Part shown: piece after piece, positions 1 through 38,877 of the stretch
Layout: every line of letters starts with the position of its first letter
How positions within the stretch are numbered: the stretch's first letter is position 1
Source: Auricularia sp. M13
Lineage: Eukaryota; Basidiomycota; Agaricomycetes; Auriculariales; Auriculariaceae
Assembly (NCBI GenBank): GCA_037042915.1
Contig: CM073199.1
Coordinates: 1 to 64,000 of the forward strand
Direction: 5' to 3'
DNA: 64,000 nt
The notes under the pieces: model-generated
Database searches by the model: none
Told to the model about the DNA's origin: nothing
What the model saw: the letters and a program-made list of their open reading frames with translations, nothing else
Made by a program: the position numbers and the translations under genes

Positions 1-840
1 GTCCAGCACGCCGGAAGACTCGGAAGGTAACCTCGGCAGGGTCTGCGGTCGCCCATTTCGGATTTTGTCGCATCGGCGAAATTGCGCGTTGCCATGACGG
101 CGCACTGCCTCGTGAGTGGTACCATCGCGTAGACCTCGCGAGAGCTCCTCGGAGATATATGGGTGTCCGACGATCGGGGTCCAACTGGGGTCGCGATTGG
201 CTCTTGTCGGTCCCTTGTCCATCATTTGTCCATCATTTGTTGGTGAACGGTTTGGTCTGGAATGTGTTTGCACCCGTCCCCGGTTTCAGCTGCACTCCTC
301 GTCGAGATACGGCTCCTTGTCGACGCCTTGTCCATCATTTGTCCATCATTTGTCGGGATTTGTTGGGCTCGTCCAGAATGCGTGCGCTCGTCGTCCCGCG
401 AGTTTAGCTGCTCCCCTCGCGGAGATACGGCTCCTTGTCCGGGTTTCGTGACATCGGCAGGTATTCCGGGTTGCTTTGGCAACGGACGGCCGAGGTAGCG
501 ACACCATCGCGTAGCCACGATCGTCAGCCTTCCGGAGATATATGGCTGTCGGGGTGTCTGCTCTCATTTGGAGTCCCTGGAAGCTCTTGACGGTCTCTTG
601 TCGGACAAATGATGGACAAATCGCGGACAAGTGATGGACAAATGATGGGCAAGTGATGGACAAGGCCAAACGCGCTTTGCACGCAGAGTGCCGTGGGGCT
701 CGCAAAATTCCGGCACCAACCCTCAATCGAACTGCCGGGCCCAACATAATTTTGCGAGTCAGCGCCAAGCCCCCTTCCTCGTTTCCGTGGCGCAGGAACC
801 TTTTGATCTCATACCATGAGATCCGGGCGACATATTAATA
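1..840 (+). repeat. Family A unit, 5' part outside the window
   Basis: This is the 3' part of a unit; its start is cut by the window edge. It ends with an 8-bp stem (805-812 with 816-823, loop ACC) and a tail ending at 840. Confidence 0.85.
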
Positions 841-2382
841 TCTTCCGGGACCTCGGCCCACTCGCAGCGGCACGACCGGTGCACCGATTCGCACGGTTGA
901 AACTGTTCCGGGAGCTGGAATTTTTCTCGTCGCGGATCCGACATGCGGCATCACGATCGCCAAGAAAGACGGGCACGCTTCCAATCGGCTTTGCTGACGA
1001 GACCAAGTCGGAAGAACGTATTCAGCCCCGGTTGAGTGGGACTTCCTTTCTCCTGGCCAAAGGTCGAGGATGCTCAGACTATCGGCAGGGTCCTTTTGCC
1101 TTCTGCCAGCCAAACACTGCCGATCGGTGGGCAGACCGACAGGCTCCCGAGCCGCGCACCCCCAAACCCCCAAATCGAGGCCAGTCCGACAGCGTCGGCG
1201 GGCTTCGGATTCTGCGATTTTGTGCCATTTCCCCTGCAAATGAGCCCCCAGTGTCCCGACATGGTGCGCAGAGAAGTTTCAGGCCTCGACGAGCGCCAGG
1301 GACAAAGCGAGACCCAGTTTGGCATCTGCAGATCTTGCAGCAGACTGCGATCAGTTCTGGACACGGTCCCTGCAGATCCAGGCTTCCTGTGCATCCGATC
1401 GGCGTCTTCGGCAGCTCTCAGGTCATATATGGATGTCTCTGACTCGGTCCCACAAGTCTCACGATCTGCCTTCGGCACTTCACAGCGCAGTCAAACCTCG
1501 ATCGGCAGGGTTCGTATTTTGGCACCGCCCATCGGATGGTCGTCCAGCACGCCGGGAAGACTCCGGAAGGTAACCTCGGCAGGGTCTGCGGTCGCCCATT
1601 TCGGATTTTGTCGCATCGGCGAAATTGCGCGTTGCCATGACGGCGCACAGCCTCGTGAGTGGTACCATCGCGTAGACCTCGGCGAGAGCTCCACGGAGAT
1701 ATATGGGTGTCCGACGATCGGGGTCCAACTGGGGTCGCGATTGGCTCTTGTCGGTCCCTTGTCCATCATTTGTCCATCATTTGTCTGGAACGTGTTTGGA
1801 ATGTGTTTGTCCCCCGCGGTTTCAGCTGCACTCCTCGTCGAGATACGGCTCCTTGTCGACGCCTTGTCCATCATTTGTCCATCATTTGTCGGGGATTTGT
1901 TGGGCTCTCGTCCAGAATGCGTGCGCTCGTCGTCCCGCGAGTTTAGCTGCTCCCCTCGCGGAGATACGGCTCCTTGTCCGGGTTTCGTGACATCGGCAGG
2001 TATTCCGGGTTGCTTTGGCAACGGACGGCCGAGGTAGCGACACCATCGCGTAGCCACGATCGTCAGCCTTCCGGAGATATATGGCTGTCGGGGTGTCTGC
2101 TCTCATTTGGAGTCCCTGGAAGCTCTTGACGGTCTCTTGTCGGACAAATGATGGACAAATCGCGGACAAGTGATGGACAAATGATGGGCAAGTGATGGAC
2201 AAGGCCAAAACGCGCTTTGCACGCAGAGTGCCGTGGGGCTCGCAAAATTCCGGCACCAACCCTCAATCGAACTGCCGGGCCCAACATAATTTTGCGAGTC
2301 AGCGCCAAGCCCCCCTTCCTCGTTTCCGTGGCGCAGGAACCTTTTTGATCTCATACCATGAGATCCGGGCGACATATTAATA
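841..2382 (+). repeat. Family A unit 1 (1542 bp)
   Basis: Full-length unit from TCTTCCGGGACCTCGG to the tail ending at 2382. Motif clusters lie near 1759-1785 and 1866-1892 (forward) and 2143-2203 (inverted). Confidence 0.88.
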
Positions 2383-3919
2383 TCTTCCGGGACCTCGGCC
2401 CACTCGCAGCGGCACGACCGGTGCACCGATTCGCACGGTTGAAACTGTTCCGGGGAGCTGGAATTTTTCTCGTCGCAGATCCGACATGCTGCATTCCGAT
2501 CGCCAAGAAAGACGGGCACGCTTCCAATCGGCTTTGCTGACGAGACCAAGTCGGAAGAACGTATTCAGCCCCGGTTGAGTGGGACTTCCTTTCTCCTGGA
2601 CAAAGGTCGAGGATGCTCAGACTATCGGCAGGGTCTTTTGCCTCTGCCAGCCAAACACAGCCGATCGGTGGGCAGACCGACAGGCTCCGAGCCGCGCACC
2701 CCCAAACCCCCAAATCGAGGCCAGTCCGACAGCGTCGGCGGGCTTCGGATTCTGCGATTTTGTGCCTTTTCCCCTGCAAATGAGCCCCCAGTGTCCCGAC
2801 ATGGTGCGCAGAGAAGTTTCAGGCCTCGACGAGCGCCAGGGACAAAGCGAGACACACAGTTGGCATCTGCAGATCTTGCAGCAGACTGCGATCAGGTCTG
2901 GACACGGTCCCTGCAGATCCAAGGCTTCCTGTGCATCGGATCGGCGTCTTCGGCAGCTCTCAGGTCATATATGGATGTCTCTGACTCGGTCCCACGAGTC
3001 TCACGATCTGCCTTCGGCACTTCACAGCGCAGTCAAACCTCGATCGGCAGGGTTCGTATTTTGGCACCGCCCATCGGATGGTCGTCCAGCACGCCGGGAA
3101 GACTCCGGAAGGTAACCTCGGCAGGGTCTGCGGTCGCCCATTTCGGATTTTGTCGCATCGGCGAAAATTGCGCGTTGCCATGACGGCGCACAGCCTCGTG
3201 AGTGGTACCATCGCGTAGACCCTCGCGAGAGCTCCTCGGAGATATATGGGTGTCCGACGATCGGGGTCCAACTGGGGTCGCGATTGGCTCTTGTCGGTCC
3301 CTTGTCCATCATTTGTCCATCATTTGTCTGGAACGTGTTTGGTCTTCGTCCCGCGGTTTCGGCTGCACTCCTCGTCGAGATACGGCTCCTTGTCGACGCC
3401 TTGTCCATCATTTGTCCATCATTTGTCGGGGATTTGTTGGGCTCTCGTCCAGAATGCGTGCGCTCGTCGTCCCGCAAGTTTAGCTGCACCCCTCGCGGAG
3501 ATACGGCTCCTTGTCCGGGTTTCGTGACATCGGCAGGTATTCCGGGTTGCTTTGGCAACGGACGGCCGAGGTAGCGACACCATCGCGTAGCCACGATCGT
3601 CAGCCTTCCGGAGATATATGGCTGTCGGGGTGTCTGCTCTCATTTGGAGTCCCTGGAAGCTCTTGACGGTCTCTTGTCGGACAAATGATGGACAAATCGC
3701 GGACAAGTGATGGACAAATGATGGGCAAGTGATGGACAAGGCCAAAACGCGCTTTGCACGCAGAGTGCCGTGGGGCTCGCAAAATTCCGGCACCAACCCT
3801 CAATCGAACTGCCGGGCCCAACATAATTTTGCGAGTCAGCGCCAAGCCCCCCTTCCTCGTTTCCGTGGCGCAGGAACCTTTTTGATCTCATACCATGAGA
3901 TCCGGGCGACATATTAATA
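2383..3919 (+). repeat. Family A unit 2 (1537 bp)
   Basis: Full-length unit with the same start and end as unit 1. It differs by scattered substitutions and small indels. Confidence 0.88.
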
Positions 3920-5460
3920 TCTTCCGGGACCTCGGCCCACTTCGCAGCGGCGCGACCGGTGCACCGATTCGCACGGTTGAAACTGTTCCGGGGAGCTGGA
4001 ATTTTTCTCGTCGCAGATCCGACATGCTGCATTCCGATCGCCAAGAAAGACGGGCACGCTTCCAATCGGCTTTGCTGACGAGACCAAGTCGGAAGAACGT
4101 ATTCAGCCCCGGTTGAGTGGGACTTCCTTTCTCCTGGACAAAGGTCGAGGATGCTCAGACTATCGGCAGGGTTCTTTTTGCCTGCTGCCAGCCAAACACG
4201 GCCGATCGGTGGGCAGACCGACAGGCTCCTGAGCCGCGCACCCCAAACCCCCAAATCGAGGCCAGTCCGACAGCGTCGGCGGGCTTCGGATTCTGCGATT
4301 TTGTGCCGTTTCCCCTGCAAATGAGCCCCCAGTGTCCCGACATGGTGCGTGCAGAGAAGTTTCAGGCCTCGACGAGCGCCAGGGACAAAGCGAGACACAG
4401 TTTGGCGTGTGCAGATCTTGCAGCAGACTGCGATCAGGTCTGGACACGGTCCCTGCAGATCCCAGGCTTCCTGTGCATCCGGATCGGCGTCTTCGGCAGC
4501 TCTCAGGTCATGTATGGATGTCCCCGACTCGGTCCCACGAGTCTCACGATCTGCCTTCGGCACTTCACAGCGCAGTCAAACCTCGATCGGCAGGGTTCGT
4601 ATTTTGGCACCGCCCATCGGATGGTCGTCCAGCACGCCGGGAAGACTCCGGAAGGTAACCTCGGCAGGGTCTGCGGTCGCCCATTTCGGATTTTGTCGCA
4701 TCGGCGAAAATTGCGCGTTGCCATGACGGCGCACAGCCTCGTGAGTGGTACCATCGCGTAGACCCTCGCGAGAGCTCCTCGGAGATATATGGGTGTCCGA
4801 CGATCGGGGTCCAACTGGGGTCGCGATTGGCTCTTGTCGGTCCCTTGTCCATCATTTGTCCATCATTTGTCTGGAACGTGTTTGGTCTTCGTCCCGCGGT
4901 TTCGGCTGCACTCCTCGTCGAGATACGGCTCCTTGTCGACGCCTTGTCCATCATTTGTCCATCATTTGTCGGGGATTTGTTGGGCTCTCGTCCAGAATGC
5001 GTGCGCTCGTCGTCCCGCAAGTTTAGCTGCACCCCTCGCGGAGATACGGCTCCTTGTCCGGGTTTCGTGACATCGGCAGGTATTCCGGGTTGCTTTGGCA
5101 ACGGACGGCCGAGGTAGCGACACCATCGCGTAGCCACGATCGTCAGCCTTCCGGAGATATATGGCTGTCGGGGTGTCTGCTCTCATTTGGAGTCCCTGGA
5201 AGCTCTTGACGGTCTCTTGTCGGACAAATGATGGACAAATCGCGGACAAGTGATGGACAAATGATGGGCAAGTGATGGACAAGGCCAAAACGCGCTTTGC
5301 ACGCAGAGTGCCGTGGGGCTCGCAAAATTCCGGCACCAACCCTCAATCGAACTGCCGGGCCCAACATAATTTTGAGTCAGCGCCAAGCCCCCCTTCCTCG
5401 TTTCCGTGGCGCAGGAACCTTTTTGATCTCATACCATGAGATCCGGGCGACATATTAATA
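3920..5460 (+). repeat. Family A unit 3 (1541 bp)
   Basis: Full-length unit that is very close to unit 2 over its second half, which suggests recent duplication or conversion within the array. Confidence 0.88.
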
Positions 5461-6998
5461 TCTTCCGGGACCTCGGCCCACTCGCAGCGGCACGACCGGT
5501 GCACCGATTCGCACGGTTGAAACTGTTCCGGGGAGCTGGAATTTTTCTCGTCGCAGATCCGACATGCTGCATTCCGATCGCCAAGAAAGACGGGCACGCT
5601 TCCAATCGGCTTTGCTGACGAGACCAAGTCGGAAGAACGTATTCAGCCCCGGTTGAGTGGGACTTCCTTTCTCCTGGACAAAGGTCGAGGATGCTCAGAC
5701 TATCGGCAGGGTTCTTTTTGCCTGCTGCCAGCCAAACACGGCCGATCGGTGGGCAGACCGACAGGCTCCCGAGCCGCGCACCCCCAAACCCCCAAATCGA
5801 GGCCAGTCCGACAGCGTCGGCGGGCTTCGGATTCTGCGATTTTGTGCCGTTTCCCCTGCAAATGAGCCCCCAGTGTCCCGACATGGTGCGCAGAGAAGTT
5901 TCAGGCCTCGACGAGCGCCAGGGACGAAGCGAGACACACTTTGGCGTGTGCAGATCTTGCAGCAGACTGCGATCAGGTCTGGACACGGTCCCTGCAGATC
6001 CCAGGCTTCCTGTGCATCCGATCGGCGTCTTCGGCAGCTCTCAGGTCATGTATGGATGTCCCCGACTCGGTCCCACGAGTCTCACGATCTGCCTTCGGCA
6101 CTTCACAGCGCAGTCAAACCTCGATCGGCAGGGTTCGTATTTTGGCACCGCCCATCGGATGGTCGTCCAGCACGCCGGGAAGACTCCGGAAGGTAACCTC
6201 GGCAGGGTCTGCGGTCGCCCATTTCGGATTTTGTCGCATCGGCGAAAATTGCGCGTTGCCATGACGGCGCACAGCCTCGTGAGTGGTACCATCGCGTAGA
6301 CCCTCGCGAGAGCTCCTCGGAGATATATGGGTGTCCGACGATCGGGGTCCAACTGGGGTCGCGATTGGCTCTTGTCGGTCCCTTGTCCATCATTTGTCCA
6401 TCATTTGTCTGGAACGTGTTTGGTCTTCGTCCCGCGGTTTCGGCTGCACTCCTCGTCGAGATACGGCTCCTTGTCGACGCCTTGTCCATCATTTGTCCAT
6501 CATTTGTCGGGATTTGTTGGGCTCTCGTCCAGAATGCGTGCGCTCGTCGTCCGCAAGTTTAGCTGCACCCCTCGCGGAGATACGGCTCCTTGTCCGGGTT
6601 TCGTGACATCGGCAGGTATTCCGGGTTGCTTTGGCAACGGACGGCCGAGGTAGCGACACCATCGCGTAGCCACGATCGTCAGCCTTCCGGAGATATATGG
6701 CTGTCGGGGTGTCTGCTCTCATTTGGAGTCCCTGGAAGCTCTTGACGGTCTCTTGTCGGACAAATGATGGACAAATCGCGGACAAGTGATGGACAAATGA
6801 TGGGCAAGTGATGGACAAGGCCAAAACGCGCTTTGCACGCAGAGTGCCGTGGGGCTCGCAAAATTCCGGCACCAACCCTCAATCGAACTGCCGGGCCCAA
6901 CATAATTTTGCGAGTCAGCGCCAAGCCCCCCTTCCTCGTTTCCGTGGCGCAGGAACCTTTTTGATCTCATACCATGAGATCCGGGCGACATATTAATA
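5461..6998 (+). repeat. Family A unit 4 (1538 bp)
   Basis: Full-length unit. Its tail is followed directly by a 5'-truncated subfamily B copy, giving the junction TTAATA/GGGTGTCC. Confidence 0.88.
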
Positions 6999-7681
6999 GG
7001 GTGTCCGGCGATCGGGATCCAACTGGCGTCGCAATTGGCTCTCGTCGGTCCCTCGTCCATCATTTGTCCATCATTTGTTGGTGATCGGTCGGCTTCATGT
7101 CTGGAATGGGTTTGCTCTTCGTCCCGTGGTTTCAGCTGCACTCCTCGTTGAGCTACGGCTCCTTGTTGAGCTCTTGTCCATCATTTGTTCATCATTCGTT
7201 GGGCTCTCGTCCAGAATGCGTTCGCTCGTCGTCCCGCGAGTTTAGCTGCACCCCTCGCGGAGATACGGCTCCTTGTTCGGGTTTTGTGACATCGGCAGGG
7301 ATTCCGGGTTGCTTTGGCAACGGACGGCCGAGGTAGCGACACCATCGCGTAGCCACGATCGTCAGCCTTCCGGAGATATATGGCTGTCGGGGTGTCTGCT
7401 CTCATCTGGAGTCCCTGGAAGCTCTTGACGGTCTCTTGTCGGACAAATGATGGACAAATCGCGGACAAGTGATGGACAAATGATGGGCAAGTGATGGACA
7501 AGGCCAAAACGCGCTTTGCACGCAGCCTGCCACGGGCCACACAAAATTCCGGCACCAACTCCGGAATGTTTTCTGAGGGCGTCGATAAATTTCTGACGTT
7601 CCGCCGACCGGCTATCTCCGATATTGCGTCCCCTGGAAGCTTTTCATCCTGATACCATCGGGATCGGGCGACATATTAAGA
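6999..7681 (+). repeat. Subfamily B unit, 5'-truncated (~683 bp)
   Basis: The copy starts at GGGTGTCCGGCG, which is internal in the full-length B unit that follows (at about 8546). It ends in a different hairpin, stem ATCCTGAT with ATCGGGAT (one G-T wobble) and loop ACC, then GGGCGACATATTAAGA. The region between about 7555 and 7640 differs from family A proper. Confidence 0.82.
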
Positions 7682-9230
7682 TGTTCTGGGACGTCGACCG
7701 ACTCGCAGCGGCACGACCGGTGCACCGGTCGCACGGTTGAAACTGTTCCGGGAGCTGGAATTTTCTCGTTGCAGATCAGACATGCGGCATCACGATCGCC
7801 GAGAAAGATGGGCACGCTTCCAATCGGCTTAGCTGACGAAACCAAGTCGGAAGAACGTATTCAGCCCCGGTTGAGTGTGACTTCCTTTCTCCTGGGCCAA
7901 AGGTCGAGGATGCTCAGACTATCGGCAGAGTCCTTTTGCCTTCTGCCAGCCAAACACAGCCGATCGGTGGGCAGACCGACAGGCTCCCTGAGCCGCGCAC
8001 CCCCAAAGCCCCAAATCGAGGCCAGTCCGACAGCGTCGGCGGGCTTCGGATTCTGCGAATTTGTGCCTTTTCCCCTGGATATGAGCCCCCAGTGTCCCGA
8101 CATGGCGCGCAGAGAAGTTTCAGGCCTCGACGAGCGCCAGGGACGAAGCCAGACCCAGTTCGGCATCTGCAAATCCTGCGGCAGAGTGCGATCAGGTCTG
8201 GACACGGTCCCTGCAGATCCCAGGCTTCCAGTGCATCGGATCGGCGTCTTCGGCAGCTCTCAGGTCATATATGGATGTCTCTGACTCGGTCCCGCGAGTC
8301 TCACGATTTGCCTTCGGCACTTCACAGCGCAGTCAAAACTCGATCGGCAGGGTTCGTATTTTGGCACCACCCATCGGATGGTCGTCCAGCACGCCGTGAA
8401 GACTCCGGAAGGTAACCTCGGCAGGGTCTGCGGTCGCCCATTTCGGATTTTGTCGCGTCGGCGGGAATTGCGTGTTGCCATGACGGCGCACAGCCTCGCA
8501 AAGGGTACCATCGCCTAGATCTCGGCGAGAGCTCCCCGGAGATATATGGGTGTCCGGCGATCGGGATCCAACTGGCGTCGCAATTGGCTCTCGTCGGTCC
8601 CTCGTCCATCATTTGTCCATCATTTGTTGGTGATCGGTCGGCTTCATGTCTGGAATGGGTTTGCTCTTCGTCCCGTGGTTTCAGCTGCACTCCTCGTTGA
8701 GCTACGGCTCCTTGTTGAGCTCTTGTCCATCATTTGTTCATCATTCGTTGGGCTCTCGTCCAGAATGCGTTCGCTCGTCGTCCCGCGAGTTTAGCTGCAC
8801 CCCTCGCGGAGATACGGCTCCTTGTTCGGGTTTTGTGACATCGGCAGGGATTCCGGGTTGCTTTGGCAACGGACGGCCGAGGTAGCGACACCATCGCGTA
8901 GCCACGATCGTCAGCCTTCCGGAGATATATGGCTGTCGGGGTGTCTGCTCTCATCTGGAGTCCCTGGAAGCTCTTGACGGTCTCTTGTCGGACAAATGAT
9001 GGACAAATCGCGGACAAGTGATGGACAAATGATGGGCAAGTGATGGACAAGGCCAAAACGCGCTTTGCACGCAGCCTGCCACGGGCCACACAAAATTCCG
9101 GCACCAACTCCGGAATGTTTTCTGAGGGCGTCGATAAATTTCTGACGTTCCGCCGACCGGCTATCTCCGATATTGCGTCCCCTGGAAGCTTTTCATCCTG
9201 ATACCATCGGGATCGGGCGACATATTAAGA
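7682..9230 (+). repeat. Subfamily B unit, full length (1549 bp)
   Basis: It starts ATGTTCTGGGACGTCG, the counterpart of the family A start, and ends in the same B hairpin and tail as the preceding copy. It is the last unit of the array. Confidence 0.85.
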
Positions 9231-9798: not shown

Positions 9799-9800
9799 GT

Positions 9801-18005: not shown

Positions 18006-18073
18006 ACGTGCGTGCTATACAAGGTCTATCTGGGTTTATGAACTCGCGTTGCCGAGCAACGCGGGAGGGCGTA

Positions 18074-20140: not shown

Positions 20141-20344
20141 ACAATCTTGTTCGTTAACAGGTAGAGCCATCCGACGCTGCGGTCAGCGTAGAGGCATCAC
20201 TAACAGCCATCTTGCTTTATCTCATCTACGAACATCACGACGATTGGTGCGATATCACACAACAACCGCAGTCATGTTCATTAATGAGAAAGAACACAAA
20301 TGGGCCACGGTGTGTACCAACTGTCCCAGCGGTGCAGAAAGCCG

Positions 20345-22029: not shown

Positions 22030-22049
22030 GAGCCCCCCAGAGTAGAGCA

Positions 22050-24524: not shown

Positions 24525-24722
24525 CGCAAGCAGGTGGTGCGAGGGAGAAGAGCGAAAAGGCGGAGTCTAAACTAATGTAACTATGCGAGCTTAATGGAAA
24601 GTCGTACGAGCGAGCGCGAACTACATGAGAGAGCATGAGAAAGAGAGAGAATGAGGAAAAGGAAAGAAAATAGAAGGAGAAAGGAAAAGATAACATAGTG
24701 GGGAGAGCATAGGAGGGGCATA

Positions 24723-27700: not shown

Positions 27701-30700
27701 GCATTACGCGCTGGAAGATCGCGGGCCCATTGCGCAAGCCGAAGGGCATCCTCTTGAACTGGTAGAGGCCCTTGTGCGTTCGGAACGCTGTTTTCTCGAC
27801 GTCGTCCGGGTTGATCTCCATCTGGTTAAAACCCGCGAGCGCGTCGAGCGACGAAAGGACCTGGGCACCTGAAAGCGCGGAAAGAATGTCGGATTGGCGA
27901 GGGATTGGAAACTCGTCAGCTATAGTTACTGCGTTGAGCTTCCGGTAGTCCACGCAGAAGCGCGGTTTCCCATTCCTGAAGACTATGACGACGGGAGCAG
28001 CCCATGGGCTAATGGACTCTTCCACCACCCCCAGCTGAAGCCAGCTTTCGAGCTGTTCCTCAATGACCTGCTTCTTCTCGGGCGACGCACCGTGCATTGG
28101 CACAGCGATAGGTTCCACGTCGGGCTTCGTACGCACGCGCGCATTGACGTTAAGGTGGCCTAACCTTCCGTCAAGACCGAACGCGAGCTGATGTTTGTGC
28201 AGCATTTCTATCGCTTCATCCCTGACCTTCTGCGGGAGGTCGGGCGACAGGTCGAGCAGCTTGTTGAAGTCCGCTGACGAGTAGATGGTAGGGTCAGGAG
28301 CGTCGGCCGTGGAAGGCGGCTCGAGTTCATCAGACTCGTCCTGGGCGTCGGGCGGTTTCTTCGGCTCTTCAGGCAGTACTGGTACGTCCTGCGCGCGCGC
28401 GTCCGCCTTGTCATTCGTAGCGTTTGTGGAACCGACAGTAGCGTCGCGCTCTTCAGGAGCTGCGCTAGCCCTGCAGGCGAAGGCGTGTATCGCGCGCTCT
28501 TCTTCTGAACGAGAATCCATCTCTTGCACAAGCGCGGCGAGACCCTGCGCTTGCGCTAGCAGAGCAGACCGTTCGTCGTCATTTCGGGGAACCGTCAGCG
28601 ACCGGGCGGGGTCTTTGGCAACGCCCAACAGAGTTCCTGAGCTGATCAACCAAGGGCGGCTAGTTGGATTGGACACCGCAATAGCTGACCGGCGCGGCAG
28701 TTGTAGGCCGTTCTCGTCGTGTACCGGTCCTCTAGCCGTAGATATCAAGCAGTTCGCGACCGTTAGAAACGTGTCCTCGCCTACGCAGATGAGGTTACGT
28801 TCTACGAACCAATCGCGATCGTGCGGAAGTTCGCTGGAATAGTCGACGAGCGCAGTCGAGTTGGCGCTGACGATGGTATCCTCGTACGCTCGAAGCTCTC
28901 CATTGCCCGAAGCTTTCTTGCGACGGTGTCGCGCTGCTTTCGCTCGACGGTGATTCTTCGCCCTGATGAAGAAGGCCGCGCGCGGATCTGTGACAGTGAA
29001 GCTGCGCGCTAGCGCTGAAGCTGCGCGCACGGGCGGAAAGGCCGCGCTGGACTTTGAGACAGAGGAGGCTGCGAAGTGGTAGCCCGAGTCGCTGACTTTG
29101 ACGCGGGTTCCTTTGGTGACGTTACGGAGGACTTGTAGCTCGTAGTTCAGATGCCAGTCTTCGCCCAGTAAAAGGTTGACCGCCATTTTAGGGACGACGT
29201 ACGCCTCGACGTCGAATTCCAGCGTAGCGCCATCCTCCGCCCGAATGAAGACTGGCAGCTTTACGTAGCCTTCGATGTCGCAAGTCTTCGTGGTTAGCTG
29301 CGCGATCTGAACGTTCAGCCCCTTCCTGATTCTAGGAGGGTTCTTCAGCGACATAAGGAAGGCTTTGTCGATGATAGATAGGCTAGCTCCAGAGTCAAGC
29401 GTAAGATCCGCGAGCTTGTCCTCCAGTGATCCCAGACGGCCGCGGCAGGTGAGCACCGATATCCCTACTGACGAACGACCGCTTGGGGTTAAACGGCGCA
29501 GCGGCATGCGAAGCACACACTCAGGCGGGGGAGCTTCTGGGTCGCGGACGGGCACGTCACGAGCAGGAGGCCCCGCGGCGTTCGCAATATTAGCTGCGGC
29601 AGCTAGGGCCTGCGCGAAGACGGCAGCCTGCACCGAAGGGCCACCCTCGGGGAACTCGTCGTCGGAGTTTTCCTCTTCCGAGTCGCTGGTGGCAAGCAAG
29701 TCCGGGAGGTCGTCTTTTTCCGCGGTGAAGCTTTGAGCTAGGGGTAGGGGGCCGTCTGTGGATGCTCGAGGGCGGACGACGGGGTCGTCGGCGTCCCCGT
29801 CCTCTTCATCCTCTGTGTCACTGCTCGCTAGCAGGTCCGGAAGGTCATCCCTTTCCGGCCTGCTCTCAGCATTCGTAGCCGTGAGCGCGGAAGTTGGGAT
29901 AGCTGCGCTAGCGGATAGCACGGGTCGAAGGTCAAGAGGTTCGGGGTCCGAAGCTGACTCAGGTTCGACCTCATGTAGCAACCCCGGACCGTTCCAAGTT
30001 TCTATCCTGTTAAGATATGAAGCTTCTGTATCTTCCACTTCTTCTAAACTGGGTTTCGAGCGAGCAGCCAGGGGAGCGAGATCGAGAGCTTCAAAGGTAG
30101 CGCCCACGGATCCGTACGAGGAGAAAGCGAGTTCATTGGAGTATAACGTGTAGACAGCGTCGTACATTTTCTCCTCTTCGGGAGTGCGGTCCATAGCGAA
30201 CAGGACGTTTTGCTTCTTTCGAGCGAGATACGAAGGGAAGTGCCCGCAATCGCGATCCCAATGCTTTGCGCTGCCGCACACCTTGCAAGGCGACGGCGGC
30301 GCGCGTTTGCTGACAACGCTGCTCGTCGGGAAAGGGTACCCCCCCACTGGCGGCGGACGGGTTTTCCCTCCGTTCGCCAGTACCGCGAAAACCGATTGCA
30401 GAACGGCGGCGTTGGCACCCGCAACTTCAGGCGTCTGCTCTGGCGTTTGGTCGATGAGCGCCGAGTCGTCGTACGAGTTGAAGTAGACGTCGTCTGCGGA
30501 GACAGCCACGTGTGCTGAACGGAAGGGTTTTGCGGGCGGCGCCGTCTTGTAAGGGTTGCCGCTGGTGCTCGGGCGCCATACGGACCTCTTTTGGGAGAGC
30601 TGCGCCTCCAGAGCCTCGAGCCGGTCGCGGATCGCGGCGGCGTCGTGCCCCCCGCTCGACGCAGCGTGAGCCGAAGACAGCGCGTCGGCCATGTTCTTGA

Positions 30701-32972
30701 CGCGCGTCATCAGGATGTCGGTGTTGACGATATTGTGCTCGCCGATAACGAACGACCATTCGGCGGGCGCGTTAGCCATGACTTGAGCGACCATCCTTTC
30801 GGGCGGAAGGTCGAACAGCACTCGCGCTAAGAAAATGCGGCGGTTAATGTATTCGAAAGGCGTCTCGCGCTCATGCCCTCGTTGCCGGAAGTGCATGGCG
30901 GCAAATTCGATCCCCTTCTTCTGGGCCCATGGCGCGGAGAGGAAGTTCCTGCGTATGCCGGCCAGGAAGGTGAAGAAGGACTGTTGCATATCGTTGCGCT
31001 CCGGGTCGGACAGGTTGGACCACCACATGGCCGCGGGTCCGCTCCACCGGAGAGGGGCAGCTTCCGCGAGCTGGTTGATGAGCTCGCCGTTTTTTCCAGC
31101 GCGAGCCCACTCGTTCAGCGCGTTGAAGTAAACGAGCGCGCTTTCGTCCTGGCCGTCCCACGCGGGCAACTCGTCGCGTTTGACGCGCGTGTCGATGGAG
31201 AGCCCTCTGCGTGCGTTGCGATCGTAATCTTGACCGTAGCCGTCCCCCGGGTCATCGTCCGGATCGTCTGGGCGGTGGGGAGGCCCTCCACCGCCTCCTT
31301 GGCCGAAGTTGCGACGTTGTCCTTCGCGAGAGTCATCGCGTTGCCCGCGAAAGCCTCCTCGCCTTCCGCCGCCGTTTCCGCCGCCGCCACCACCGCCGCC
31401 TTCATCATCTCCGTCGTCATCGTCATCCCCGCCGCCGCCTCCGCCGCCAAAACCTCCAGGGCCCAACCTTCCTTTAGCGAAATGGGGAGGAGTAGCCCGT
31501 CCCGCAGTGCGGAAAGGGTTAGGGGATTTGACGGGAGCGGGCGCGCCAGGGGAAGCGACTCTCGTGGCCGCTTCAGCGTCCACGAGATGGCTGAGGAACA
31601 CAGGATCCAGCGGGGCAGGTTGCGAGCGAGCGACTGCGACGACAGCGTCCAGCGTATGCGTCTGCAGAGCTGGATGGACCGGTTGTTGACGTTTAAGGTA
31701 AGACGGCGAGCCTAAGCCCGTGAGCGCATCACCCCATGCCGAAAAGTCAGCAGGGTTACGCGCGAAGGTCGGGCGGCGGTTGCCAGGTCTCTGCTTTGCG
31801 CCGTAGAATGGGTCAGGCTCTTCGCGCATCATTTTTGACATCGCGACTGAGTCCTTCGTAGTCCAGGTGCCCTGAGCGGTAGCGGCCTGGCGGATAGTGG
31901 GCGAGGCAGCGGCTGAGCGCGACGGCGTGTTAGCGTTCGTCGCGGCGCGGAATGACGCCTCCATGAAGCTGTTGAAATAGCCTTGGATGGAGACGTCCAA
32001 AGGGCCGGGCAGCGGCGGCAACTCGGTATCGGGCACGAGCTCGACCATCACTTGAAGAAAGATGTCCGCAAACGTCACCCATTCCGTGAGGCGCTTGAAG
32101 GCGCGGACGGCGTCACCATATTTATCGAAATCCGAGTTGCACAGCAAGGCGAGCGGCTCGTTCCATTCGTCGGCCAAGTAACGTTTGCCTTCGGGGATCG
32201 CGAGCGTAACGTAGGCCCGTTCAATAAAGACATGCAAGTGACCGATAGCCGTTTCGAACTGGCCTACGACGCCTAGAATGAAGCAGTATCGCGACCCGGA
32301 CCTCGTGAAGTATTCCAAGCACGGCTGGAGGGCCCTAGCGCGCGCTATGAGCACTTGAGGCGTTTCTTCGAGCACAGCAGTGCCTTGAGTACCATCGCTG
32401 GCTACTTCGTCGCTGACATCGACTGCAACTTTGATAGCAGCGTATTCGACGATAATAGCGTCCCGAGCCAGTTGGCCGGGAGTGGCTGCCGAAGTCGGCG
32501 TGACGACACGATTGGGGCGCGCCGGGGTTACCGTCTCCGAGCTGTCATTCCCAGTCGTAGGCGCTGGAGGAGGAGCCGACCGAGGAGCTGCCGGGGCAGC
32601 GCGGAGCGGCATCGTAGCGGCGACACGAGCAAGACGAGCGGTGGGTGTGTCGAGAGGATTTCTGGCACGGATCGGCACTGGAGCGGCGATCCCTACTCCT
32701 AGAGTGCGAGTCGTGCGGTATAGAGAGGCGCGAGAAGGCGCCTGGGGCGGCGCGGGATCCGCTGCAGGAACGGAAGCCGTAGTCGGCTGAGCGGGAGGCG
32801 CGCGAAGGGGCGTGTGTAGACCGGGGGCTGCTGAGAGCCCGGGGTTGTAGGCTTCGAAGTCAGATTCGGGCCGTTTTGCGCGGGCGCGGTCGAGTTCGTC
32901 CGTAGACGATAATCCGAGAGTCGGAGAAGACGTAGGAGGGCCGGGGTTCGTAGCAGATGGGCCCCGACTCAT
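24723..32972 (-). CDS. gag-pol: Gypsy-2 Gag-Pol polyprotein with chromodomain (2749 aa)
   Basis: Single intact frame. Residues 1-350 are Pro/Ala-rich. An Asp/Gly-rich linker lies near 500-580, and a retrotransposon Gag domain at about 600-830 (AWDGQDESALVYFNALNEWA). There is a CCHC-like knuckle CKVCGSAKHWDRDCGHF near 900 and an aspartic protease with LTLDSGASLSIIDK near 1190. The reverse transcriptase (about 1640-1800) has CVDYRKLN and the catalytic LVYIDDIVVYS near 1770. RNase H has YTDASDEALG near 1915. The integrase has an HHCC zinc domain (HAGAEKLY...CATCDVCQKN, near 2320-2365) and a DDE core (FDLITGLPW near 2387, IADRDGRW near 2450, HHPQHDGQTERTN near 2480). The C-terminal chromodomain YEVEKIVAHR...YLTRWVGYG...SWLT is at about 2690-2749. 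Gag and Pol share one frame with no stop or shift between them. The protein replicates and integrates the element; chromodomains of this class can steer integration to modified histones. Confidence 0.95.
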   Translation of the reverse strand: MSRGPSATNPGPPTSSPTLGLSSTDELDRARAKRPESDFEAYNPGLSAAPGLHTPLRAPPAQPTTASVPAADPAPPQAPSRASLYRTTRTLGVGIAAPVPIRARNPLDTPTARLARVAATMPLRAAPAAPRSAPPPAPTTGNDSSETVTPARPNRVVTPTSAATPGQLARDAIIVEYAAIKVAVDVSDEVASDGTQGTAVLEETPQVLIARARALQPCLEYFTRSGSRYCFILGVVGQFETAIGHLHVFIERAYVTLAIPEGKRYLADEWNEPLALLCNSDFDKYGDAVRAFKRLTEWVTFADIFLQVMVELVPDTELPPLPGPLDVSIQGYFNSFMEASFRAATNANTPSRSAAASPTIRQAATAQGTWTTKDSVAMSKMMREEPDPFYGAKQRPGNRRPTFARNPADFSAWGDALTGLGSPSYLKRQQPVHPALQTHTLDAVVAVARSQPAPLDPVFLSHLVDAEAATRVASPGAPAPVKSPNPFRTAGRATPPHFAKGRLGPGGFGGGGGGGDDDDDGDDEGGGGGGGGNGGGRRGGFRGQRDDSREGQRRNFGQGGGGGPPHRPDDPDDDPGDGYGQDYDRNARRGLSIDTRVKRDELPAWDGQDESALVYFNALNEWARAGKNGELINQLAEAAPLRWSGPAAMWWSNLSDPERNDMQQSFFTFLAGIRRNFLSAPWAQKKGIEFAAMHFRQRGHERETPFEYINRRIFLARVLFDLPPERMVAQVMANAPAEWSFVIGEHNIVNTDILMTRVKNMADALSSAHAASSGGHDAAAIRDRLEALEAQLSQKRSVWRPSTSGNPYKTAPPAKPFRSAHVAVSADDVYFNSYDDSALIDQTPEQTPEVAGANAAVLQSVFAVLANGGKTRPPPVGGYPFPTSSVVSKRAPPSPCKVCGSAKHWDRDCGHFPSYLARKKQNVLFAMDRTPEEEKMYDAVYTLYSNELAFSSYGSVGATFEALDLAPLAARSKPSLEEVEDTEASYLNRIETWNGPGLLHEVEPESASDPEPLDLRPVLSASAAIPTSALTATNAESRPERDDLPDLLASSDTEDEEDGDADDPVVRPRASTDGPLPLAQSFTAEKDDLPDLLATSDSEEENSDDEFPEGGPSVQAAVFAQALAAAANIANAAGPPARDVPVRDPEAPPPECVLRMPLRRLTPSGRSSVGISVLTCRGRLGSLEDKLADLTLDSGASLSIIDKAFLMSLKNPPRIRKGLNVQIAQLTTKTCDIEGYVKLPVFIRAEDGATLEFDVEAYVVPKMAVNLLLGEDWHLNYELQVLRNVTKGTRVKVSDSGYHFAASSVSKSSAAFPPVRAASALARSFTVTDPRAAFFIRAKNHRRAKAARHRRKKASGNGELRAYEDTIVSANSTALVDYSSELPHDRDWFVERNLICVGEDTFLTVANCLISTARGPVHDENGLQLPRRSAIAVSNPTSRPWLISSGTLLGVAKDPARSLTVPRNDDERSALLAQAQGLAALVQEMDSRSEEERAIHAFACRASAAPEERDATVGSTNATNDKADARAQDVPVLPEEPKKPPDAQDESDELEPPSTADAPDPTIYSSADFNKLLDLSPDLPQKVRDEAIEMLHKHQLAFGLDGRLGHLNVNARVRTKPDVEPIAVPMHGASPEKKQVIEEQLESWLQLGVVEESISPWAAPVVIVFRNGKPRFCVDYRKLNAVTIADEFPIPRQSDILSALSGAQVLSSLDALAGFNQMEINPDDVEKTAFRTHKGLYQFKRMPFGLRNGPAIFQRVMQHILSPFLWIFTLVYIDDIVVYSATYGEHLEHLDKVLSAIEKAGLTLSLKKCHFFYSSILLLGHKVSRLGLSTHDEKVAAIVDLLPPAKLSALQTFLGMVVYFQAFIPYYSFVVAPLFKLLRKDVAWRWGDEEQHAFEEAKAALQKAPVLGHPIRGQTYRLYTDASDEALGACLQQIQPIRVGDLVGTQVYDRLRRAFDNKEPVPLLCSKLSTKLQDVPEPGPWAADLDDTEVYVERVVCYWSRTFKNAERNYSATEREGLAAKEALIKFQPFVEGESVILITDHAALQWARTWENTNRRLAAWGAVFSAFSGLEIVHRAGRLHSNVDPLSRLPRDSEGVRSPPAFISPAKDTIPAIRTDVDAAELLERVAGNKPAARMETVFFASSLDDLAEPVALEACAHAVLTRRQKRKLAETEVKAVPDSATLDAEGSSLRPNDPVRPTSPSKEGAPVLELSRPAGEGRPDAEAAGLRYEDQLEWKAANPPPTLLVSMNGELKKRYSTGYDRDPAFKGKGYTSDERSWYAGNRFYRGNDGLLFFRDADLMPRLCVPRSEQPALLKQLHESAFETAHAGAEKLYLRMSAQFYWPRMRTDVASFCATCDVCQKNKSDSNTKHGLLRSHNIPSLPYERISFDLITGLPWSGLYNAILVVVDLCTKHAQFIPTDTGLDTEGFARLFVNEVVCRFGLPKEFIADRDGRWLSRFFEALTKHMGVHMLLSSAHHPQHDGQTERTNRTLKTMLRHYAASDPDAWDRWLPSMEFAYNSTAHKSTTMSPYSALYGYQPRSAVDLFAPGRKADIPRHLTAHKDADEFLIAIQNHRHAARDAIAAAQHRQAQAYNAGRHEFALEPGQLVLLKPHSLELVETHGEGKKLLQRAFGPFTVQERVSDATYRINLPPSFPMSNVIHASHLKKYFPSPKHFGHRVSLPNPRWDDLAEEVYEVEKIVAHRRNRSRKQMEYLTRWVGYGPEHDSWLTTRELRDAPAVLIDYRRAHGI

Positions 32973-33055
32973 TCACTTCGAGTATGATAATGGGAATTTT
33001 CCTGAGGATGCCTGACGTTGCTGGTCTGGCTAGCCGATCCGGATTCGTCCACCTC

Positions 33056-33376
33056 TGTGAGAGGTATCCGCGGTGAGGATTCACCAGAGGATGCGGATGG
33101 CTAGCAAGGGCCGAACAGCTGTAAGCAGTGAGCGCCCGTCAGAGGTCAGGAGACCGCTGTCAAGCGTCAAGGGCGGATAGAGCTAGTACTCGAGGGCGGG
33201 TAGCGCTCGAGGATAGCGGGGCACAGACACTCGCTAGCTCACAGTGCACGGGGCGTCGTGCGCGGGGTGAGGGTTTGTGCGAGTAAAATGTCTAAGTGTG
33301 TATTCCTAATACGACCAAACATCGGAACAGAGATGGCGGATGTATCTACGAACAATAGTAAGACCTACTCCTTACA
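33056..33376 (-). repeat. 5' LTR of Gypsy-2 (321 bp)
   Basis: Second LTR copy, followed on the minus strand by GAGGTGGACGAATCC, where the primer-binding site should lie. The identity of the priming tRNA was not determined. Confidence 0.93.
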
Positions 33377-33381
33377 CCCTC

Positions 33382-33499
33382 AATCGAACTGCCGGGCCCA
33401 ACATAATTTTGCGAGTCGGCGCCAAGCCCCCCTTCCTCGTTTCCGTGGCGCAGGAACCTTTTGGATCTCATACCATGAGATCCGGGCGACATATTAATA
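33382..33499 (+). repeat. 5'-truncated family A copy, right part
   Basis: Continuation of the copy split by Gypsy-2, from AATCGAACTGCCGGG to the module and tail ending at 33499. The stem here is 9 bp (GGATCTCAT with ATGAGATCC, loop ACC), one pair longer than in the first array. Confidence 0.9.
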
Positions 33500-33593
33500 G
33501 GAACCTTTTGGATCTCATACCATGAGATCCGGGCGACATATTAATAGGAACCTTTTGGATCTCATACCATGAGATCCGGGCGACATATTAATA
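33500..33593 (+). repeat. Two extra tandem 47-bp copies of the 3' module
   Basis: 33500-33546 and 33547-33593 each consist only of GGAACCTTTT, the hairpin and the tail GGGCGACATATTAATA. With the end of the preceding copy this makes three modules in a row, exact to the base as read. Confidence 0.92.
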
Positions 33594-35156
33594 TCTTCCG
33601 GGACCTCGGCCCACTCGCAGCGGCACGACCGGTGCACCGATTCGCACGGTTGAAACTGTTCCGGGGAGCTGGAATTTTTCTCGTCGCAGATCCGACATGC
33701 TGCATTCCGATCGCCGAGAAAGACGGGCACGCTTCCAATCGGCTTTGCTGACGAGACCAAGTCGGAAGAACGTATTCAGCCCCGGTTGAGTGGGACTTCC
33801 TTTCTCCTGGCCAAAGGTCGAGGATGCTCAGACTATCGGCAGGGTCCTTTTGCCTGCTGCCAGCCAAACACGGCCGATTGGTGGGCAGACCGACAGGCTC
33901 CCGAGCCGCGCACCGCCCAAACCCCCCAAATCGAGGCCAGTCCGACAGCGTCGGCGGGCTTCGGATTCTGCGATTTTGTGCCGTTTCCCCTGCAAATGAG
34001 CCCCCAGTGTCCCGACATGGTGCGCAGAGAAGTTTCAGGCCTCGACGAGCGCCAGGGACGAAGCGAGACACACTTTGGCATGTGCAGATCTTGCAGCAGA
34101 CTGCGATCAGGTCTGGACACGGTCCCTGCAGATCCCAGGCTTCCTGTGCATCCGATCGGCGTCTTCGGCAGCTCTCAGGTCAGGTATGGATGTCTCTGAC
34201 TCGGTCCCACGAGTCTCACGATCTGCCTTCGGCACTTCACAGCGCAGTCAAACCTCGATCGGCAGGGTTCGTATTTTGGCGCCGCCCATCGGATGGTCGT
34301 CCAGCACGCCGGGAAGACTCCGGAAGGTAACCTCGGCAGGGTCTGCGGTCGCCCATTTCGGATTTTGTCGCATCGGCGAAAATTGCGCGTTGCCATGACG
34401 GCGCACAGCCTCGTGAATGGTACCATCGCGTAGACCCTCGCGAGAGCTCCCCGGAGATATATGGGTGTCCGGCGATCGGGGTCCAACTGGGGTCGCAATC
34501 GGCTCTTGTCGGTCCCTTGTCCATCATTTGTCCATCATTTGTCGGCAATCGGTCGGGCTCACGTCTGGAACGTGTTTGGTCTTCGTCCCGCGGTTTCGGC
34601 TGCACTCCTCGTCGAGATACGGCTCCTTGTCGACGCCTTGTCCATCATTTGTCCATCATTTGTCGGGGATTTGTTGGGCTCTCGTCCAGAATGCGTGCGC
34701 TCGTCGTCCCGCGAGTTTAGCTGCACCCCTCGCGGAGATACGGCTCCTTGTCCGGGTTTCGTGACATCGGCAGGTATTCCGGGTTGCTTTGGCAACGGAC
34801 GGCCGAGGTAGCGACACCATCGCGTAGCCACGATCGTCAGCCTTCCGGAGATATATGGCTGTCGGGGTGTCTGCTCTCATTTGGAGTCCCTGGAAGCTCT
34901 TGACGGTCTCTTGTCGGACAAATGATGGACAAATCGCGGACAAGTGATGGACAAATGATGGGCAAGTGATGGACAAGGCCAAAACGCGCTTTGCACGCAG
35001 AGTGCCGTGGGGCTCGCAAAATTCTGGCACCAACCCTCAATCGAACTGCCGGGCCCAACATAATTTTGCGAGTCGGCGCCAAGCCCCCCTTCCTCGTTTC
35101 CGTGGCGCAGGAACCTTTTGGATCTCATACCATGAGATCCGGGCGACATATTAATA
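33594..35156 (+). repeat. Family A unit, full length (1563 bp)
   Basis: It starts TCTTCCGGGACC and ends in the 9-bp-stem module. It carries a small extra segment (GGCAATCGGTCGGGCTCACG, about 34544-34563) compared with the first-array units. Confidence 0.88.
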
Positions 35157-36154
35157 GGCCTCGACGAGCGCCAGGGACGAAGCGAGACTCACTTTGGCAC
35201 GTGCAGATCCTCCAGCAGAGTGCGATCGGATCAGGACACGGTCCCTGCAGATCACGGGCATCCATGGCTTCGGATCGGCGTCGTCGGCAGCTCTCGGGTC
35301 ATATGTGGATGTCTCTGACTTGGTCCCACGAGTCTCATGTTCTGCCTTCGGCACTGCACAGCGCAGTCAAAACTCGATCGGCAGGGTTCGTATTTTGGCA
35401 CCGCCCATCGGATGGTCGTCCAGCACGCCGGGAGGACTCCGGAAGGTAACCTCGGCAGGGTCTGCGGTCGCCCATTTCGGATTTTGTCGCATCGGCGGAA
35501 ATTGCGCGTTGCCATGACGGCGCACAGCCTCGCGAAGGGTACCATCGCGTAGACCTCGGCGAGCGCTCCCCGGAGATATATGGGTGTCCGGCGATCGGGA
35601 TCCAGTTGGGGTCGCAATTGGCTCTTGTCGGTCCCTTGTCCATCATTTGTCCATCATTTGTCGGGGATTTGTTGGGCTCTCGTCCAGGATGCGTGCGCTC
35701 GTCGTCCCGCGAGTTTAGCTGCACCCCTCGCGGAGATACGGCTCGTTGTCCGGGTTTCGTGACATCGGCTGGTATTCCGGGTTGCTTTGGCAACGGACGG
35801 CCGAGGTAGCGACACCATCGCGTAGCCACGATCGTCAGCCTTCCGGAGATATATGGCTGTCGGGGTGTCTGCTCTCATTTGGGGTCCCTGGAAGCTCTTG
35901 ACGGTCTCTTGTCGGACAAATGATGGACAAATCGCGGACAAGTGATGGACAAATGATGGGCAAGTGATGGACAAGGCCAAAACGCGCTTTGCACGCAGAG
36001 TGCCGTGGGGCTCGCAAAATTCCGGCACCAACCCTCAATCGGACTGCCGGGCCCAACATAATTTTGCGAGTCAGCGCCAAGCCCCCCTTCCTCGTTTCCG
36101 TGGCGCAGGAACCTTTTGGATCTCATACCATGAGATCCGGGCGACATATTAATA
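35157..36154 (+). repeat. 5'-truncated family A unit (998 bp)
   Basis: It begins GGCCTCGACGAGCGCC, internal to the full unit, immediately after the previous tail. It ends with the module at 36112-36154. Confidence 0.88.
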
Positions 36155-37080
36155 GGAAAGCAGCCCAAGGTAGGATTAATAGTGTACTTCTTTCTGCGGT
36201 GCTGACGGACATTTGTGTAGGTCGTCGACAAGCTGCGTTGGATGTGTTTGGATTGTGTTAAGACGGGGAAAAGACCGGGAGGGGCTCACAAGCGACTTTG
36301 GAAGTGATAGAGGAAATCCTGTGACGCTTTGGCTGAATGTTTCGAGTGCATTGATGACTGACTGATTGTTGATATTTATGGAAAAAGACAGCGCGAAGCA
36401 CGGCTTCAGACTTCGAGTCTTCGTTTGGGTGTTTGGGTTAGATGACACGTGTCACAAACGAATAGACTGGCAGACAAGTTTCCGCTGCCTGTGGATGCAG
36501 TGCGAGGTGCGAGAATCAGTGCATGACGCCGTGAGACCGCGACGGGCATATGACGCATGTTTAGGCAGCGCCTCATGTGCCGGCGTCAGTGATAATATCG
36601 GCAATCAAAGCTGGAGATTGTGACTGTGATTCTGTGTCGATGCGGTCTTCTCATACTGTGAGGACAACGAATTCAAGATTGATTACGCCCGATTCAGCGG
36701 ACACGATTCATCAGCGGAGAGAATAGAGATTCGGAGGCTGGAACCTGAATTGACTAGAGGAGTCGTTTCGCAAAATCTTGTGAATCGGCGGATTGGTGTC
36801 AATTTTGATTCAGGTCTGGTCCCACAAGGCGGCTCCGATTCTGGTCGAGTATCAACCTCGATTCAACAACTTGGATTTCCCAAATGATAATGATTCTGTA
36901 GCTATGAAAGCATCTCGCTCACAGACAGTAATGCAGGAACTGCAGGAACTGCAGAGGTGATAGCACGATGGGATGGAAGACGCATCAACGCACCACCAGA
37001 AGGCATATTCTCCAGGCGGATTGTACAAGCAGATGGGGAGGAAAGTTTGTTTGATTGCAAGACATTATACACTTTGTTAA
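36155..37080. other. AT-richer non-coding stretch
   Basis: No frame longer than about 90 codons and no recognisable similarity. It may be the 5' part of the family D element that follows, since no other boundary is visible. Confidence 0.5.
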
Positions 37081-38877
37081 GGGAATGTGAAGCAGCCATT
37101 GCAGTGTTTTCTTTGGGAGCACTTCCCACCTAATGTGAAGCATCTCCCCCAGCAACTTAGAGCAGCAGCGTTTCCCACCACAGCGTTTCCAACCGAAGGG
37201 CTTCCCATCGATTGGAGTTCCCATCGTTTTGTCTTACCATCGAATCTGAAGCACCTTCGCCTCAGCAACTCTGAGCTGCAGCGTTTCCCGCCGCAGCACT
37301 TCCCATCATTTGCGCTTACCATCATTTTCGCTTCCCATCGAATCTGAAGCACCTTCGCCTCAGCAACTCTGAGCTGCAGCGTTTCCCGCCGCAGCACTTC
37401 CCATCATTTGCGCTTCCCATCAATTCTACTTCCCATCATTTTCACTTACCATCAAATCTGAAGCACCTTCACCTTAGCAACTGTGAGCCGCAGCGTTTCC
37501 CGCCGCAGCACTTCCCATCATTTGCGCTTCCCATCATTTGCGCTTACCATCATTTGCGCTTCCCATCATTTTCGCTTCCCATCATTTGCGCTTCCCGTCA
37601 TTTTCACTTACCATCGAATCTGAAGCACCTTCGCCTCAGCAACTCTGAGCTGCAGCGGTTCCCGCCGCAGTGCTTCCGATCATTTGCGCTTCCCATCATT
37701 TGCGCTTCCCATCATGTTCACTTACCATCGAATCTGAAGCACCTTCGCCTCAGCAACTCTGAGCTGCAGAGTTTCCCGCCGCAGCACTTCCCATCATTTG
37801 CGCTTCCCATCATTTGCGCTTACCATCATTTTTGCTTCCCATCATTTGTGCTTCCCATCATTTTCACTTACCATCGAATCTGAAGCACCTTCGCCTCAGC
37901 AACTCTGAGCTGCAGCGGTTCCCGCCGCAGTGCTTCCGATCATTTGCGCTTCCCATCATTTGCGCTTACCATCATTTTCGCTTCCCATCATTTTCCCTTA
38001 CCATCGAATCTGAAGCACCTTCGCCTCAGCAACTCTGAGCTGCAGCGGTTCCCGCCGCAGTGCTTCCGATCATTTGCGCTTCCCATCATTTGCGCTTACC
38101 ATCATTTTCGCTTACCATCATTTGCGCTTCCCATCATTTTCGCTTGCCATCGAATCTGAAGCACCTTCGCCTCAGCAACTCTGAGCTGCAGCGTTTCCCG
38201 CCACAGCACTTCCCATCATTTGCGCTTACCATCATTTTCGCTTACCATCATTTGCGCTTCCCATCATTTTCACTTACCATCGAATCTGAAGCACCTTCGC
38301 CTCAGCAACTCTGAGCTGCAGCGGTTCCCGCCGCAGTGCTTCCGATCATTTGCGCTTCCCATCATTTGCGCTTACCATCATTTGCGCTTCCCATCATTTT
38401 CACTTACCATTGAATCTGAAGCACCTTTGCCTCAGCAACTCTGAGCTGCAGCGTTTCCCGCCGCAGCACTTCCCATCATTTGCGCTTCCCATCATTTTCG
38501 CTTACCATCATTTGCGCTTCCCATCATTTTCACTTACCATCGAATCTGAAGCATCTTCGCCTCAGCAACTCTAACTCACTGCATTCCCCATCATCTGTGC
38601 TTCCCATCACGAGCCCTTACCATCTGCTGTGCTTCCCCTGATGGTAAGGCGAGTGTGATGGTAAGGATTGACTTCCCATCACCTCACCATGATGGGAAGC
38701 GCAAATGATGAAGTGCTGTCAAAGGCTCAATATTGCATGTGAACCCACCAGAAAAAAAAACTGATGTCGCAGATGGCAATCATAATTTTTGAGCAGAAAA
38801 ATTTGATGGTAAGTGCAGTAATTGGTCCTCAGGAAGCAAACGGGCTTGATGGTATCAAGCCGGGCGACATAGTAATA
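37081..38877 (+). repeat. Family D minisatellite element
   Basis: Eleven copies of a block around CTGAAGCACCTTCGCC / TCAGCAACTCTGAGCTGCAG (starting near 37246, 37347, 37459, 37620, 37734, 37879, 38009, 38157, 38287, 38417 and 38547). They are separated by runs of CCATCATTTGCGCTTC units, giving periods of about 100-160 bases. Near 38640-38720 the same core appears inverted (GATGGGAAGCGCAAATGATG). The element ends in the shared 3' module at 38830-38877. Frames across the array are repeat translations, not genes. The left boundary is uncertain. Confidence 0.85.
38830..38877 (+). repeat. Shared 3' module, family D version
   Basis: CAGGAAGC (38830-38837), then an 8-bp perfect stem (GGCTTGAT 38843-38850 with ATCAAGCC 38854-38861) with loop GGT, then GGGCGACATAGTAATA ending at 38877. 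This is a third unrelated stem with the same flanks. Confidence 0.85.

Follow-up and report, generated by a model that had tools for sequence, protein, structure and literature searches.

Non-coding subtelomeric elements of Auricularia sp. M13 end precisely at a covarying 3′ hairpin module and adjoin GG

The left end of contig C7 (CM073199.1) of the basidiomycete Auricularia sp. M13, whose first 64 kb constitute the window analysed here, carries copies of several repeat families, each of which ends in a short module made up of a hairpin between fixed flanks and the tail GGCGACATAKTAAKA. Across the 52.1-Mb genome (14 contigs), non-coding elements of the subtelomeres (families A/B/E, C, D and F), whose 5′ truncation points vary, stop precisely at this module on their 3′ side, and they follow a simple attachment rule, mostly A or T followed by GG (WGG), in non-telomeric flanking DNA. 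We propose, at a probability of roughly 0.55, that families A to F are non-coding, probably non-autonomous retroelements that were added to telomere-less chromosome ends. The chromosome-end location, the single orientation and the GG attachment are new here and had no part in the interpretation offered by a preliminary description of this DNA.

All 14 modules that the preliminary description placed in the window lie at exactly the ends given and on the + strand, the tail pattern matching 14 times on this strand and never on the other. When the window was searched with a covariance model of 15 module types, these 14 alone were strong matches (44.6–75.6 bits); the next best, at 18.1 bits, fell on the opposite strand of one of these hairpins. 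The stems, the 3-nucleotide loops and the two unvarying innermost pairs match the description, and the AGGAASC start holds for A, C and D, with B beginning TGGAAGC. The modules ending at 33499, 33546 and 33593, listed as three separate ones, are correctly positioned and represent one copy plus two tandem 47-bp copies. Families A and B, which had been taken to be unrelated, are 90.6% identical across 1444 aligned columns. Their units measure ~1.54 kb (A) and 1.55 kb (B), and family E (1.15 kb), found at other contig ends, is 88% identical to both over its first ~880–900 bases; the bodies of C, D and F (the last represented by locus L082 on contig C2) differ from A/B/E. The motif CCATCA/TGATGG is common to A–F and to a further repeat, G, at 4.5 to 21 per kb versus 0.3 to 0.6 in three comparison sequences; it is a minisatellite motif that these families share although their bodies differ in other respects. 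The units yielded no recognisable coding partner, which supports reading them as non-coding elements.

The 22 distinct modules in the loci read divide among four classes of stem (A/F, B, C and D/E), and 15 of them were used for alignment; the seven without a row of their own are the first A copy of the window, a loop variant (L073), a GGGTGAC variant (L023), a double end (L072), a C variant (L027) and a tandem copy (L032), both identical to rows that were used over most or all of the aligned part, and a B module ending TTAATA (L080). Over the nine stem pairs, 93.1% of 131 cells pair, a share that falls to 26.7–43.7% when one arm is slid by 1–3 columns. Compensating changes on both sides are found in six of the nine pairs. 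Most of the variation is between the four stem classes; within classes there are one-sided changes, and mismatches at E1 (A-G), E3 (C-A), B3 (T-C) and F2 (G-G). None of 500 shuffles reached the observed number of paired cells, the number of cells changed on both sides or the covariation score; the count of pairs with a both-sided change was reached by 61 of the 500 and the count of further pair types by 180, neither of which lies above the shuffles. When the 3′ arms were dealt over the four families in all 24 ways, the true pairing scored 32/32 and the next best 28. The complementarity of the stem is real, and few independent events lie behind it. That the flanks are kept while the stem letters change supports selection on a structured 3′ end, comprising the fold and its fixed flanks, as had been suggested.

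Many further families with new stems had also been anticipated. A genome-wide search for AGGAASC, 8–30 free bases and GACATANTAANAGG matched 58 places, all of 49 or 50 bases (letters read in 8 of the 58), and yielded no stem class beyond the four, with a pattern of exact flanks that cannot detect families with altered flanks and that missed B itself. A wide new superfamily is therefore unsupported: the flanks are largely those of the families already known, together with their close kin E and F, and the covariation is essentially that among four stems. We saw no sign that the module is part of a larger known element, since the Rfam 15 covariance models, run on positions 1–40000 of the window, gave one chance-level match (E 0.86), located inside a Gypsy element.

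The loci read yielded 53 distinct module-plus-flank pairs, namely 12 tandem junctions that continue with TC or TG, one E tandem junction that continues with GG, and 40 non-tandem junctions, which bear out the earlier expectation of module-bounded joins to different DNA. GG comes next in 39 of these 40. Because 30 junction loci were picked by a pattern that includes GG, and this sample is accordingly biased, the weight is carried by the sets chosen without it: GG follows at 8/8 non-tandem places in the window, where the six tandem places continue with TC (five) or TG (one), and at 8/8 C copies with eight different flanks, the window C copy being shared by the two sets to leave 15 distinct junctions. 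The share of GG among window dinucleotides is 0.075. A flank ranking that covers the best 100 of 268 implies that neither A nor C comes straight after an exact tail. In all 21 rows in which the neighbour belongs to a known repeat and the point could be read (one a near-duplicate), a relative of the target has GG of its own there, preceded by A in 15, T in 5 and C in 1. The units themselves start with TC (A), TG (B) or GG or TG (E) and finish with TAATA or TAAGA. A in the window and C on contig C6 are attached at one and the same sequence, GGCCTCGACGAG, and the D module ending at 38877 is followed by the GG of non-repeated DNA. The outer part of the neighbour is absent where checked: no 16-mer of family A occurs in 9231–21392, although the element to which C is attached, at 21443, is an A copy. 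Very short copies, namely the two 47-bp modules of the window and a 21-base end piece lying between two junctions at L078, are also cut at GG, and a module with an internal deletion at L075, not counted among the 53 pairs, is again followed by GG.

Genome-wide, the 15-base tail with up to one mismatch occurs at 272 places, and the 100 matches listed include runs of 56 consecutive A-type modules (C2) and of 20 (C3). The tail followed by GG occurs at 87 places, a set that includes E arrays of 17 modules at the right end of C7 and of nine exact modules on C13. Thirteen clusters lie less than 100 kb from a contig end, and in 12 of them the 3′ end faces inward (head-out). The exception, at C5:57995–60025, comprises elements of families C, F and A together with G repeats, which point away from the near contig end; that end itself begins with telomere repeats, and the cluster is either a misjoin or a real inversion. 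Five clusters are internal, at 1.08 Mb on C1, 2.43–2.52 Mb and 2.595–2.61 Mb on C2, 0.94 Mb on C6 and 2.01 Mb on C11. The heads of the two C2 clusters face each other, and those on C6 and C11 have a 100-N gap on the head side, as would be expected if scaffolding had joined chromosome ends.

The telomeres of this genome are TTAGG repeats, some of them TTAGGG, and a profile search found a Telomerase_RBD match of 58 bits on C10. At the right end of C4, similarity to a truncated copy of family C starts ~10 bases within the telomere repeats. Such repeats also cap a B copy of 131 bp on C11 and, as judged by eye, A-type sequence on C1. Repeat G was found at 16 places on C1, C2, C4, C5, C6, C11 and C13 (for example L041 1–3590), three of them in the odd C5 cluster, using a search pattern that itself ended in AACC. 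Its end is GGAACCCCCTCTAT followed by AACCTAACC, with a telomere tract after it at the five sites read further (C1, C4, C5, C6 and C11). Repeat G thus looks like a telomere-repeat-attached element, which implies that telomere-attached and GG-attached repeats coexist. A second repeat ends in GGCATCTATGAGCATT followed by AACCTAACC (L042, L078 and L091).

A reverse transcriptase that primes on open chromosome ends would leave the pattern seen here, in which 3′ ends are exact, 5′ ends vary, elements stack outward and telomere repeats cap some truncated copies. We infer an RNA intermediate, an enzyme supplied in trans and pairing of CC(T) with (A)GG. With the element ending precisely in the hairpin plus GGCGACATAKTAAKA, the RNA would end at or just past TTAATA, or at TTAATAGG. 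The reverse transcriptase would grip this RNA through the hairpin and the fixed flanks, and complementary DNA would be synthesised outward from a chromosome whose 3′ terminus, CC or CCT, serves as the primer, perhaps by pairing over 2–3 bp with (A)GG in that RNA. The new copy would become the chromosome end, erode, and then gain the next element or telomerase repeats, and tandem arrays would start by addition of RNA to a full-length copy and later expand through recombination.

We keep the RNA step conditional because no reverse transcriptase partner was found. Frame lists were read for L075, L082, L081, L041, L091, L092, L093, positions 9231–21442 of the window, the long C locus of L073, and L094 with L082, and Pfam was run on 4 and 10 frames of the window and on eight frames of L082, L091 and L081. 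A module-bounded reverse transcriptase is absent from the frames read, which hold Gypsy, Copia, a gag, a RasGEF domain and weak PHD/C1 finger matches instead; hAT-like and F-box-like pieces were also seen, by reading alone. The copies read contain no autonomous member coding for reverse transcriptase of the kind that characterises MoTeR/FoTeR, and family F was rejected as a long autonomous element, its upstream frames looking host-like. In the genome-wide RVT_1 search, where the best 150 of 348 candidates were scored and were filled by stronger families, long-frame reverse transcriptase genes are plentiful. No Penelope-type reverse transcriptase was seen in the elements or flanks read, the genome scoring being that of the same best 150, and GIY-YIG gave one 37-position match in the genome.

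Several observations count against end-attached retroelements. In the loci read, neither frames nor Pfam revealed a reverse transcriptase in or near the elements. The junction at L077 goes on with GA; the stem of family E, whose units build two large arrays, contains an A-G mismatch, and B3, E3 and F2 are mismatched too; and folding energy alone is ordinary (z −0.05 to −1.92 for five sequences). The C5 cluster at 58–60 kb has the opposite orientation, other clusters lie inside C1 and C2, and recombination alone can also build tandem arrays. As a tentative extension of the proposal, a second end-repair route may exist beside telomerase, in which several non-coding RNAs with one covarying 3′ hairpin in common would be copied onto telomere-less CC ends by a reverse transcriptase that might belong to the Penelope/telomerase lineage; the hairpin would be independent of the body and would have been acquired by unrelated bodies.

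A short W^GG rule might instead reflect the target of an endonuclease, of the MoTeR/FoTeR type or from a long interspersed nuclear element (LINE), that nicks subtelomeric DNA for target-primed retrotransposition, with the outer target halves lost later. The non-coding families would borrow the enzyme via their shared 3′ end, as MoTeR2 uses MoTeR1 via shared ends according to an excerpt of PMC7367193, and long-frame reverse transcriptase genes, plentiful among the best 150 of 348 candidates, could provide one. However, the left half of the target was never seen where checked (in the window, including the A copies at 33594–36154) and each chromosome end has a single orientation. Moreover, among the matches listed, the 15-base tail with at most one mismatch lies at ends or joined ends, bar chance matches of the GGCGACATAGCAAGA type, so dispersed LINEs appear not to share it, and we consider target priming unlikely. 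Long homogeneous arrays such as the 56 consecutive A modules on C2 would suit subtelomeric satellites spread by recombination or break-induced replication without RNA, the module then being a shared boundary or a protein-binding dyad, and excerpts of PMC7367193 and PMC8381367 describe such exchange at Pyricularia chromosome ends. This we also regard as unlikely, given that the identical 3′ base is joined to unrelated sequences sharing GG alone and that compensating stem changes run across families with different bodies.

Sixteen bases separate the hairpin from the 3′ end, A units start with TC and tandem arrays are present, features that recall Helitron-type rolling-circle elements with the hairpin as terminator, and the Helitron_like_N profile matches the genome 51 times, including 12 times in frames longer than 2000 amino acids. 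Yet B units start with TG and E units with GG or TG, and Helitron matches are spread along the contigs whereas the modules are not. Helitrons have a fixed 5′ TC, a 3′ CTRR and an A-T target, an end pattern opposite to the fixed 3′ and variable 5′ ends seen here, where there is no CTRR end and the target is WGG; a rolling-circle origin thus seems very improbable. The Helitrons of this genome look recently active, 12 of their 51 matches being in such long frames.

Table 1. Element copies and interrupting retrotransposons at positions 1–38877 of the window
Positions	Strand	Feature	Module	Remarks
1..840	+	A copy	791-840	Cut by contig start
841..2382	+	A unit, tandem	2332-2382	
2383..3919	+	A unit, tandem	3869-3919	
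3920..5460	+	A unit, tandem	5410-5460	
5461..6998	+	A unit	6948-6998	Then GG internal to a B copy
6999..7681	+	B copy	7631-7681	5′ truncated at GG; 99.9% identical to 8548-9230
7682..9230	+	Full B unit	9180-9230	
9231..18550	+	Gypsy-like long terminal repeat (LTR) element		Read from frames; starts with the GG where B attaches; 3′ LTR ~18066-18550; interrupts C; outside the finding
18551..21442	+	C copy	21392-21442	Left limit is the LTR element; minisatellite 20331-21126
21443..21708	+	A copy, piece 1		5′ truncated at GG; resumes at 33376-33499 past LTR element
21705..33376	-	Gypsy with chromodomain, inside A copy		LTRs 21705-22029/33052-33376 identical; outside the finding
33376..33499	+	A copy (from 21443), piece 2	33449-33499	
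33500..33546	+	47-bp module copy		Cut at GG
33547..33593	+	47-bp module copy		Cut at GG
33594..35156	+	Full A unit	35106-35156	
35157..36154	+	A-type copy	36104-36154	5′ truncated at GG
36155..38877	+	D copy	38828-38877	Starts at GG; minisatellite ~37120-38640

The Gypsy element at 21705–33376 (Table 1) contains, besides a 2749-amino-acid pol frame, an open frame of 824 amino acids (22050–24524, − strand) with no Pfam match at 1e-3. Elsewhere in the window, a Copia element at 58433–63950 has identical 282-bp end repeats and a 1682-amino-acid frame, and positions 50453–51920 and 53309–54796 form a duplication of ~1.5 kb with 77% identity.

If families A–F are end-attached retroelements, they would provide a clean case in which both RNA and primer are recognised, through a swappable hairpin between fixed flanks and an end rule of two to three bases, alongside an apparent telomerase. 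They would also link subtelomeric satellites to non-coding RNAs that may seed them, and offer a route for repairing telomere-less ends.

The titles listed in our literature search described such elements only within Penelope-like, MoTeR/FoTeR and HeT-A-type systems. Endonuclease-deficient Penelope-like elements, which include Coprina in fungi and Athena in rotifers, reportedly carry short telomeric stretches near their 3′ end (a feature attributed to Gladyshev and Arkhipova, 2007), whereas such stretches are absent here and the tail is GGCGACATAKTAAKA followed by GG. According to excerpts of PMC3846280, endonuclease-deficient Penelope-like elements are believed to use the exposed 3′ ends of chromosomes as primers, lie largely at chromosome ends, gain telomere repeats at truncated 5′ ends and have been reported in fungi. 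The chromosome-end location and the telomere-capped truncated 5′ ends recur here, with internal clusters on C1, C2, C6 and C11 (those on C6 and C11 beside a 100-N gap); the elements differ in lacking a reverse transcriptase and in attaching at WGG.

MoTeR of Pyricularia oryzae and FoTeR of Fusarium oxysporum are described, in excerpts of PMC7367193 and PMC12857005, as having their 5′ end towards the chromosome terminus, truncated copies, head-to-tail arrays and LTR insertions in these arrays, with the non-coding MoTeR2 having its ends (860 bp and 77 bp) in common with MoTeR1. Outward 5′ ends, truncations, head-to-tail arrays and LTR insertions are all present here. However, MoTeR and FoTeR sit in telomere repeats, their units split by TTAGGG tracts, whereas here units abut and the inner flank is non-telomeric GG; in its attachment to telomere repeats, repeat G looks nearer to MoTeR than A–F do. 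HeT-A of Drosophila, for its part, is without a reverse transcriptase of its own. In an excerpt of PMC10088271, HeT-A, TART and TAHRE form head-to-tail arrays at chromosome ends with their 3′ ends towards the centromere, and head-out arrays are also seen here, in 12 of 13 clusters. HeT-A, TART and TAHRE end in poly(A), whereas the module here ends in a hairpin and a fixed tail with no poly(A), and they operate without telomerase, whereas this genome has telomere repeats and the Telomerase_RBD match on C10. Within the known general kind of end-attached retroelement, families A–F, probably non-autonomous, are likely to be a new combination of features, having a hairpin that covaries and a rule of attachment outside telomere repeats.

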